64,000 nucleotides of DNA, taken from positions 62,001 to 126,000 of the forward strand of contig NZ_AOLM01000020.1 of the NCBI RefSeq assembly GCF_000337835.1, written 5' to 3'. The DNA is from Haloferax sulfurifontis ATCC BAA-897. GTDB taxonomy: Archaea > Halobacteriota > Halobacteria > Halobacteriales > Haloferacaceae. Below are positions 53,543 to 55,486 of the stretch, piece by piece (position 1 is the stretch's first letter; each line of letters begins with the position of its first letter). The notes beneath the pieces were generated by a model. The model saw only the letters and a list, made by a program, of their open reading frames with translations, did not search any database and was not told the DNA's origin. The translations under genes and the position numbers were made by a program.

Positions 53543-53584
53543 TCAGTTGTACTCGCGCCATCGGTAGCCGCACTCTTGATGCTT
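53543..53584 (-). pseudogene. Displaced 3' end of transcription factor S gene
   Basis: Read on the minus strand it encodes K-HQECGYRWREYN followed by TGA. It matches the C-terminus of the intact tfs at 55157-55486 (KCQECGYRWREYN) in all but one residue. The DNA is identical for 16 bp (53545-53560 with 55159-55174); beyond this, mismatches fall mostly at every third base, the wobble positions. Thus two diverged copies of one gene end flank the island. Confidence 0.85.
53545..53560 (+). repeat. att-like direct repeat, left copy
   Basis: AGTTGTACTCGCGCCA, identical to 55159-55174. Same orientation; core of the tfs-end duplication. Confidence 0.85.
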
Positions 53585-53636
53585 GCTAAGTTGAAGTTTG
53601 TTATTTTCTGTGTTTGACTCTCAACAGAGCCAAACC

Positions 53637-54206
53637 TCACGAGGATGGGATCCTTTTGCGAATTGCTTTGCGGAACCAGTCACCTCTATTAATATCTCTG
53701 TTATTCCAGTCCCTACTCTGGATTCTGAATAGGTAATACAGCTCGTGGACTAGCCAAGTGACCCACGAAAGGAGAACGAACACACCGAATAGTAGCTGTA
53801 TTTGTGGATTCAATTGGTATGATTGGAGGAGGAAAAACAGTCCAGAAAACAGAAGCAGGCCGGAGTATCTGAGAGCTGTTATTTGTAGATGAAATATTAC
53901 TACTCGAATGTCACTAAAGAGTTCCAGAATGAACGTGAGCATCAAGAAACCAGCACAGACAGTCAGGACTCCAATCGTAAGTTCCTGATAGTAGCCAATC
54001 TGGTTATCTTCCAGTATAAATTTAATCACCACTAATACGATAGCAAACAGGGCGACTGATTCTGATGCTGTTCTGTCAACCACTGACATTGAATCCTCAG
54101 CGGAGGGAGCTTCGGTAGTCGATGCTGGATTGATTAAAATCTGTCCAGCGGGAACAAATATAAAAATCCCAAGTAAAGCGAGATATATCAATCCTAAGGA
54201 AGTCAT
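53637..54206 (-). CDS. Five-helix membrane protein of the AT-rich island
   Basis: 189 residues. Hydrophobic segments at about 4-25, 49-65, 75-97, 109-130 and 136-160, with a basic C-terminal tail (RKAIRKRIPSS). Codon use is AT-rich, unlike neighbours. No known family. It begins 4 nt after the last micro-zinc-finger gene on the same strand, so it belongs to that polycistron. Possible effector of the unit, by position only. Confidence 0.75.
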   Translation of the reverse strand: MTSLGLIYLALLGIFIFVPAGQILINPASTTEAPSAEDSMSVVDRTASESVALFAIVLVVIKFILEDNQIGYYQELTIGVLTVCAGFLMLTFILELFSDIRVVIFHLQITALRYSGLLLFSGLFFLLQSYQLNPQIQLLFGVFVLLSWVTWLVHELYYLFRIQSRDWNNRDINRGDWFRKAIRKRIPSS

Positions 54207-54210
54207 CTAA

Positions 54211-54321
54211 CTATTTACGGTGTTCAAAGCAGTAGTCGTGTTCTCGCCCTACAACAGTTTTACATCCTGATTCAGTACAGGATTCCTGTAATGTGTCGGT
54301 TTCAGATTCGTCATTAGACAT
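54211..54321 (-). CDS. Micro-zinc-finger gene, copy 5 of 5
   Basis: 36 residues, last in the transcribed order. C15-x4-C20-x10-C31-x2-H34 with the shared VGREHDYC core. Stop (TAG) is 4 nt from the membrane gene start; its ATG is 2 nt after the stop of copy 4. Acidic N-terminus, basic C-terminus (EHRK). Its C-terminal DNA nearly repeats that of copy 2. No database family known to me. Confidence 0.8.
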   Translation of the reverse strand: MSNDESETDTLQESCTESGCKTVVGREHDYCFEHRK

Positions 54322-54323
54322 AC

Positions 54324-54437
54324 TCAGTTTCGGTGTTTTGGACAAAATTTATGTTCTCGGCCTATGGTTTCGTCACATCCAGACTTAGCACACATACTAA
54401 GCTTTTGATCTATCTCAAAGGAGTCATCACCTAACAT
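54324..54437 (-). CDS. Micro-zinc-finger gene, copy 4 of 5
   Basis: 37 residues. C16-x4-C21-x10-C32-x2-H35, with IGREHKFC core and PKHR end. Its stop codon TGA lies 2 nt before the ATG of copy 5. The C-terminal 30 bp nearly repeat those of copy 3, so copies 3 and 4 look like a tandem duplication. Confidence 0.8.
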   Translation of the reverse strand: MLGDDSFEIDQKLSMCAKSGCDETIGREHKFCPKHRN

Positions 54438-54439
54438 AA

Positions 54440-54556
54440 TCACCCTCGGTGCTTCGGACAAAATTTGTGTTCTCGCCCAATACTGACTTTACAGCCGTCT
54501 TCGAAGCAAACTCTAACATTAGCCGATATACTCTGTTTATTTTCGTCATCAGACAT
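54440..54556 (-). CDS. Micro-zinc-finger gene, copy 3 of 5
   Basis: 38 residues. C17-x4-C22-x10-C33-x2-H36, IGREHKFC core. Stop is 2 nt before the start of copy 4; start is 11 nt after the stop of copy 2. N-terminus MSDDENK is acidic like its paralogues. Confidence 0.8.
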   Translation of the reverse strand: MSDDENKQSISANVRVCFEDGCKVSIGREHKFCPKHRG

Positions 54557-54567
54557 AGCAGAATAGG

Positions 54568-54675
54568 TTAAGCCTCCCGGTGTTTAAAGCAGTAGTCGTG
54601 TTCCCGACCAATACGATTGCCACAGCCACTTTCCCTACAAACTCCTTGGAGCATCCGCTTTTTGTCATCTGTCAT
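54568..54675 (-). CDS. Micro-zinc-finger gene, copy 2 of 5
   Basis: 35 residues. C13-x4-C18-x10-C29-x2-H32, IGREHDYC core with FKHR after it. ATG overlaps the stop of copy 1 by one base (TAATG). Shares the DYCF version of the finger with copy 5. Confidence 0.8.
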   Translation of the reverse strand: MTDDKKRMLQGVCRESGCGNRIGREHDYCFKHREA

Positions 54676-54785
54676 TATTCTTGATGCAGGGTGCAGAAAT
54701 CGTGTTCCCGGCCAATTGGATTATCGCAACCAGTCTTTGAATAAGTCACATATCGTTTAATTGTGTCTCTATCGTCCTCACTCAT
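54675..54785 (-). CDS. Micro-zinc-finger gene, copy 1 of 5, first Cys replaced
   Basis: 36 residues, first in transcription. The core GC-x3-IGREHDFC-x2-H is kept, but the first cysteine of the finger is tyrosine (YSKTGC), and the C-terminal HR is HQ. So zinc binding would rest on three ligands or be lost. Stop overlaps the ATG of copy 2. No strong TATA box is visible upstream; GTAAAAC at about 54814-54820 is a weak candidate. Confidence 0.7.
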   Translation of the reverse strand: MSEDDRDTIKRYVTYSKTGCDNPIGREHDFCTLHQE

Positions 54786-55156
54786 ACATCAAATCTGTAA
54801 ATCTCAACACATCAGTTTTACGGGGATTAATGTGGTAGAGAGAACCTACGAAAATTACCAAATTTGTTCGACCACTTCTTTCGGATGTCCGAGTCTAAGT
54901 GGAGGCACTTCATTGTCGCTGTGACGCTCTTGTACCGGAGTTGTTCTCTCGGTGGTGTGGGCCGACGTGGTTCGCCCAATATGTTATGGCCCCGTGACAG
55001 ATATTATTCCACGAGAACTCTCTGAACCGGCAGTATCCTACCTTTCCAATAGGCAATTCCGTTTGATGTTCTAATCTGAATTGACTAGACATGTGGTAAA
55101 TTCTTTCAAAACTTGTCAAAAATATACCCTCTGCTTTCGGAGGTTTGGGCGGGCTG
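54786..55156. other. Island intergenic stretch with doubtful open frame
   Basis: 371 nt, AT-rich. It contains one minus-strand open frame, 54910-55092 (60 codons from MSSQFRLEHQ), with two Cys and several His near the end but no family resemblance; it may be a remnant. A GTATATTTTTG TATA-like element lies at about 55124-55134. No integrase fragment is recognised. Confidence 0.4.
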
Positions 55157-55486
55157 TTAGTTGTACTCGCGCCACCGATACCCACATTCCTGACATTTAA
55201 AGAACCGCGTCGGCGGTTCGTCGGCAGAGCCGGTCTGTTTGATGGTGTACCACGCTTCGGTGTGGCCGCAGTCGTCGCAGTGAACGTCCTTCGCGGTCGG
55301 TTTGCCCTCGAACTCAGCGCCCTCTTCGGTCTCGATGAGTTCGTCGCCCGACTGCGCCTCGGTGGAGACGAACTCCGCCGCGAGTTCCTCGTCGCGCTCG
55401 GCGGTCCCCTCGCAGTCGTCGTTCGTGCAGGTCATCGCGCCGTTCTGGCTCACCATCATCGAACCGCACTCGTCGCAGAACTGCAT
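55157..55486 (-). CDS. tfs: Transcription factor S (TFIIS/RPB9-like)
   Basis: 109 residues from MQFCDECGSMM; the longer open frame to 55693 is shadow. N-terminal zinc ribbon CDECG plus CTNDDC, C-terminal TFIIS-type ribbon CDDCG ... CQECG with an Asp-Glu in SADEPPTRF, the dipeptide that reaches the polymerase active site to stimulate RNA cleavage. The 3' end is duplicated at 53543-53584, making this the integration target of the AT-rich island. Coding of the last residues may have been supplied by the element. Confidence 0.94.
   Translation of the reverse strand: MQFCDECGSMMVSQNGAMTCTNDDCEGTAERDEELAAEFVSTEAQSGDELIETEEGAEFEGKPTAKDVHCDDCGHTEAWYTIKQTGSADEPPTRFFKCQECGYRWREYN
55159..55174 (+). repeat. 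att-like direct repeat, right copy
   Basis: AGTTGTACTCGCGCCA, identical to 53545-53560, within the 3' end of intact tfs. Confidence 0.85.

Follow-up and report, generated by a model that had tools for sequence, protein, structure and literature searches.

The six-gene cassette

On the minus strand of the window, by which we mean the whole stretch of 64,000 nucleotides from Haloferax sulfurifontis ATCC BAA-897 that was analysed, five paralogous micro-genes are followed by a gene for a membrane protein. In reading order these are micro-gene 1 (54675..54785, 36 aa), micro-gene 2 (54568..54675, 35 aa), which overlaps the first by 1 nt in the sequence TAATG, micro-gene 3 (54440..54556, 38 aa), micro-gene 4 (54324..54437, 37 aa), micro-gene 5 (54211..54321, 36 aa) and the adjoining membrane protein gene (53637..54206, 189 aa); each of the six starts with ATG. 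The intervals between the micro-genes are -1, 11, 2 and 2 nt, and 4 nt separate the last of them from the membrane gene. An AT-rich leader (AAAACTGATRTRTYGAGRTTTAYA...; 54786..54824, minus strand) lies directly 5' of micro-gene 1, is conserved in an alignment of the window with the plasmid, Halosimplex, G214 and HRTV-13 copies described below, and is presumed to be the promoter. The original prediction, made from the sequence without database searches, had given the same five frames of 35-38 codons and the same spacing, and translation confirmed both to the base. Its proposal of a compact, coupled set also holds, with translational coupling being probable.

The finger pattern C-x4-C-x10-C-x2-H is present in copies 2-5 and copy 1 has Tyr at the position of the first Cys, so that four of the five are intact, as had been claimed. 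The orthologues of copy 1 on a plasmid (L029:8233-8343) and in the halovirus HRTV-13 (gp43) retain this Cys. The earlier description of the copies as near-identical was too strong: the others are 41-56% identical to copy 2, and a direct comparison of window, plasmid and virus shows that each slot of the array has its own orthologue. In HRTV-13 these are gp44, gp45, gp46 and gp47 for micro-genes 2 to 5, with gp48 (75% identical) corresponding to the membrane protein. A copy-level tree of 37 columns is mostly unresolved and the deep forks are beyond its reach; in it micro-gene 5 falls into a loose group with the last copy from Haloplanus ruber and from Halorubrum saccharovorum.

Are such short frames genes at all? 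The cassette genes have a GC content of 39-48% in a genome stretch of ~68%, and the DNA repeats within the array run in register with the reading frames. For the pooled fingers, dN/dS was 0.33 between window and plasmid (95% 0.19-0.58) and, as approximate values given that dS approaches or reaches saturation in comparisons with HRTV-13, 0.11 for window and virus and 0.13 for plasmid and virus. The membrane protein gave 0.37 for window and plasmid and, with the same approximation, 0.125 and 0.12. All these values are well below 1, as expected for real genes, and all six window frames are open while the adjoining integrase remnant has broken frames. The repeats in register, the intact orthologues in plasmid and virus and the finger dN/dS of 0.11-0.33 place the array beyond chance, and on this comparative evidence the five micro-genes are real genes, in line with the earlier claim.

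From the conserved ligand pattern and an AlphaFold finger model consisting of strands and a short helix (pLDDT 66) we infer that the micro-proteins bind zinc; the finger had no match in the PDB. The membrane protein has about five helices by hydropathy and a basic C-terminal tail, which hydropathy together with the positive-inside rule would place inside; its AlphaFold model (pLDDT 50) was unusable. Searches with the membrane protein against Pfam, NCBIfam, PHROGs, PADLOC and the PDB gave nothing convincing. Family searches also matched the fingers to no DNA-binding family and the cassette to no toxin-antitoxin family. A weak match of the fingers to PHROG 144, an HNH endonuclease family (E 0.003-0.03), covers the finger alone with no HNH domain and was discarded. 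Proteins of ~1100 aa from methylase/helicase clusters (G006, G070, G083 and a Salinirubellus plasmid) have a similar C-x4-C..C-x2-H stretch, which is internal, and they were set aside as unrelated. At L036, L037 and L040 such "ATP-binding" proteins lie near DUF1156 methylase and helicase genes and probably belong to a separate defence cluster. Although papers on CPxCG micro-proteins and on the comparison of HF1-group viruses were found in the open-access literature, no description of the array or its membrane partner was found there.

An island in tfs

The cassette is part of an AT-rich island (53580..55156) with ~42-45% GC against ~68%, which is absent in relatives. Two copies of a 35-nt direct repeat (83% identical), 1614 nt apart, bracket it: one lies within the present 3' end of tfs (55159..55193, minus strand) and the other is the displaced original 3' end of this gene (53545..53579, minus strand). 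The target, tfs itself, encodes transcription factor S (55157..55486, minus strand; PF01096, E=7.9e-17). Empty tfs sites were seen in other species of the same genus, and the window flanks, joined across the repeat, match the empty sites of the relatives G085, G127 and G097 over 507 nt at 91-92% with no gap. It follows from these alignments that the island is a 1.6-kb element integrated into the 3' end of tfs. Within it, upstream of the array, lies the decayed 3' end of a tyrosine integrase gene of HF1-group viruses (54855..55014, minus strand), which was recognized by tblastn with the HRTV-13 integrase (E=3e-11) and by DNA alignment. The tfs-integrated element with its viral integrase remnant, and the occurrence of the array as cargo of tailed haloviruses, go beyond the original prediction.

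At tfs the species' second genome, G107, carries a small AT-rich island of another kind (L098 17000-18500), which encodes a 309-aa protein with a lipoprotein-like N-terminus and no Pfam match. Because another island occupies the same place there, we regard the tfs 3' end as an integration hotspot. In G028 this 3' end carries a doubled att-like remnant. The usual integration site of HF1-group viruses is tRNA-Thr (PMC7230728).

Viral and plasmid copies

Searches by tblastn placed the micro-proteins in four tailed haloviruses, HRTV-13, HRTV-21, HRTV-24 and HJTV-2, represented by five records with five matching places each, and the membrane protein was matched in the same five records at 75% identity; scans of IMG/VR contributed nothing beyond the HJTV-2 record. 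The gene order in HRTV-13 and HJTV-2 is integrase, five micro-genes and membrane gene, followed by convergent genes for a wHTH protein and RtcB, and the spacing of the cassette (-1, 11, 2, 2, 4 nt) is that of the window. The six genes also occur on haloarchaeal plasmids, with 89% DNA identity to the window. Homologous arrays beside the same membrane protein, proposed with the original prediction as a means of checking it, thus exist in both plasmids and viruses.

The HF1-type integrase gene beside the cassette is intact in HRTV-13 and HJTV-2 and truncated in the window, the plasmids and G214; its broken 3' end stands just before the array in five cases: the window, the Natronomonas marina and Halorarius halobius plasmids, Halosimplex salinum and G214. 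In HRTV-5, HJTV-1, HRTV-10, HF2, HRTV-14 and HRTV-15 the slot is empty, and integrase and wHTH genes abut with at most a few nucleotides between them. Because these close relatives lack the cassette at this junction, we consider it viral cargo; like a moron, it is an extra transcription unit that some viruses have and their close relatives lack at that junction. The slot holds other genes elsewhere: in HJTV-3 it contains gp46 (L096 4110-4970), a PLD-like protein that matches PADLOC PDC-S05 (E=7.6e-18) and is a candidate defence gene, and in HSTV-3 it contains a 48-aa CxxC protein. HF2 has one CxxC micro-protein just before its integrase (PMC8707807). Small, Cys-rich CxxC micro-proteins are abundant in the HF1 group (Haloferacalesvirus; PMC7230728) and resemble the cassette fingers in this respect; however, the carriers of the cassette identified here do not include Serpecor1 and Hardycor2, which are described in that literature, and the array with its partner follows the integrase in few viruses only.

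A wider family of membrane proteins preceded by zinc-type micro-genes

Across 391 Halobacteria genomes, GREH micro-genes and members of the close membrane family were found together, in the same five genomes (G000, G024, G090, G115 and G214). More distant homologues of the membrane protein are each directly preceded by one to four zinc-type micro-genes of another class. C4 ribbons stand in this position in G399 (four), in a Natrinema plasmid, G318, G208 and G023 (two each) and in G192 (one). Double or triple ribbons are found in G205 and G380, and one longer protein in G362. Double ribbons also precede the homologue in G642 and G481, which belong to the same phylum outside Halobacteria; the membrane gene of G481 has an internal stop. 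A double-zinc-ribbon gene with a membrane homologue was noted at L124 1325-2010 and at L125 1267-1740 (minus strand of L125). The gap between micro-gene and membrane gene is mostly -4 to +6 nt in the distant loci. In all, the pairing of a zinc micro-gene with this membrane family holds without exception in ~18 lineages, against a zinc ORF in front of 1 of 281 control genes.

The two membrane groups are related by hhalign profile comparison (E=3e-10, probability 97%). The GREH finger might have originated from the first half of the double zinc ribbon, to which it can be aligned by eye, with an hhalign probability of only 4%. A membrane match in G326 (E=8.5e-4) was rejected as spurious, and no direct fusion of a finger to the membrane protein was found. 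In G399 the membrane homologue continues into a C-terminal rhomboid domain (PF01694, E=1.4e-9) with GxSG and His motifs; this fusion, at L069 8114-9851, is the one preceded by four tandem zinc-ribbon micro-genes. This domain of rhomboid proteases is absent from the window protein, as from every other homologue. That the wider family exchanges the GREH finger for CPxCG-type ribbons and keeps its membrane partner had not been foreseen in the original prediction.

CPxCG-related proteins are defined by two Cys/His patterns (spacing 2-3), of which at least one is of the CPxCG, CPxC or CxxCG type (PMC2253796). The window fingers, with C-x4-C and C-x2-H, lie outside this definition, as had been suggested, whereas their zinc-ribbon relatives fall within it; in size, 35-38 aa against under ~70-100 aa, the fingers belong there. 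Like Brz and HVO_0758 of the CPxCG-related group, they are very small, have one zinc-type domain and are often missed by annotation. They differ in forming a five-gene paralogous array tied to one membrane family.

Defence genes near the cassettes

No defence gene was seen directly neighbouring the cassette within the window, and PADLOC defence models gave no match to the membrane proteins of the window, G399 and Natrinema. We also scanned 114 genes within 6 kb of chromosomal and plasmid cassettes with PADLOC (E<=1e-12) and obtained many matches. TIR/PDC-S66 proteins occur beside plasmid cassettes, a HamB-like helicase near that of Haloplanus ruber, a DrmD-like SNF2 protein and a type IIG RM near that of G380, an HmaB-like methylase near G192, Dsr1 near G318 and HEC-06/Orf5 near G362; weaker matches were a DrmC-like PLD protein (G205) and mad8 (G214). 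None of 53 control genes matched, these being genes of the core chromosome and not of mobile islands, and the helicase and methylase models are broad. The enrichment in defence families is therefore suggestive and may merely reflect the mobile islands in which the cassettes lie. No neighbouring partner gene is fixed across the cassette loci. A TIR-domain gene lies beside the Natronomonas marina plasmid cassette (L029), and the gene after the G380 cassette (L117 6824-7705) shows by eye a Fic-like HxxxNxNxR stretch, with no Pfam match.

Possible function of the cassette

What could an array of zinc micro-proteins do in front of a membrane protein? The original prediction offered a hetero-oligomer, a sponge or a set of partners for the membrane protein. 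Because the array is strictly linked to the membrane gene, the partner role appears the most probable of the three; a sponge has no support. The membrane partner is constant across loci with different classes of finger, so the fingers most likely contact this protein directly. In general terms, we consider it quite probable that a mobile element here encodes zinc subunits and a membrane effector that act together. The zinc micro-proteins may be soluble, serving as subunits or regulators that attach to the five-helix protein from the cytoplasm, and the presence of several diverged fingers per membrane protein suggests different inputs or a mixed assembly, that is, a heteromeric or multi-input complex.

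Is this complex directed against viruses? Tailed haloviruses would carry the cassette beside the integrase gene as lysogeny cargo, and decay of the integrase would leave it behind in plasmids and chromosomes. The complex might protect its carrier against competing viruses, either by a superinfection block at the membrane or as a membrane effector triggered via the zinc subunits. An antivirus role is indicated by the cargo position, the slot shared with a candidate defence gene, the persistence of the cassette once the integrase is lost, and the neighbourhoods, and we think its chances are roughly balanced. Like prophage morons, superinfection exclusion genes and PADLOC PDC genes, the cassette comes and goes among close relatives at a single slot beside the integrase; the membrane protein, however, has no sequence relation to known exclusion or defence proteins. 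A mobile module of zinc subunits or regulators of a five-helix membrane effector, probably for superinfection exclusion or defence, is our best explanation, and we would put it at about an even chance. The evidence for its architecture is good, whereas its function is a proposal. A broader reading is more tentative: the cassettes might represent a widespread archaeal system of immunity or exclusion, not described before, whose diverged array provides exchangeable sensors for one membrane effector, with the finger class swapped, a rhomboid recruited at least once, and the whole traded among viruses, plasmids and chromosomes.

The zinc micro-proteins could instead regulate transcription, of the membrane gene as the best-linked target or of host or virus genes. 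The Brz gene directly precedes the membrane protein gene bop, and this small zinc-finger protein is required for bop mRNA (PMC2253796); the window array likewise lies directly upstream of a membrane gene, in an arrangement conserved elsewhere, and the many CxxC micro-proteins of HF1-group viruses are thought to be regulators (PMC7230728). We nevertheless regard such a regulatory module as unlikely: the use of two finger classes with one membrane family points to a protein partner more than to a DNA-binding regulator, it would be odd for regulators to be co-translated, in one to five copies, within the operon of their own target, and no DNA-binding family was matched. A toxin-antitoxin or addiction module, in which the membrane protein would be the toxin and the micro-proteins the antitoxins stabilizing plasmids and proviruses, agrees with the layout of small genes first and a coupled larger gene last and with its presence in plasmids, viruses and islands. 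It would be unusual, however, for one membrane toxin to have as many as five small antitoxins that have diverged and are each conserved, and with no family match we find this improbable. We judge quite improbable a trait of lysogenic conversion or virus-host takeover that has nothing to do with competing viruses (such as counter-defence, the handling of zinc or stress, or membrane proteolysis via rhomboid partners); it would suit viral cargo adjoining an integrase and the one rhomboid fusion, but plasmids and chromosomes keep the cassette when virus and integrase have been lost, and the neighbourhoods are rich in defence genes. That the array is a decaying, non-functional provirus remnant, for which the truncated integrase, the ligand missing from copy 1 and the higher dN/dS of the closest pair might speak, is very improbable, given six open frames with unchanged spacing and dN/dS well below 1 next to the broken integrase.

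If the membrane module does act against viruses, it would bring a membrane-based archaeal system into a field in which bacterial examples prevail, and viruses would be shown to carry such a system against each other. Whatever its role, the fixed link to one membrane family turns the function of these micro-proteins into a two-partner experiment. It also sets zinc-finger micro-proteins, an archaeal class that is large, mostly orphan and overlooked by gene callers, in a context that bears on function; the five micro-genes do not appear in the gene tables of the plasmids. The six cassette genes of the Natronomonas marina plasmid (L029 8233-9381) are missing from the PLSDB gene table, and in the viruses the cassette genes are labelled "hypothetical".
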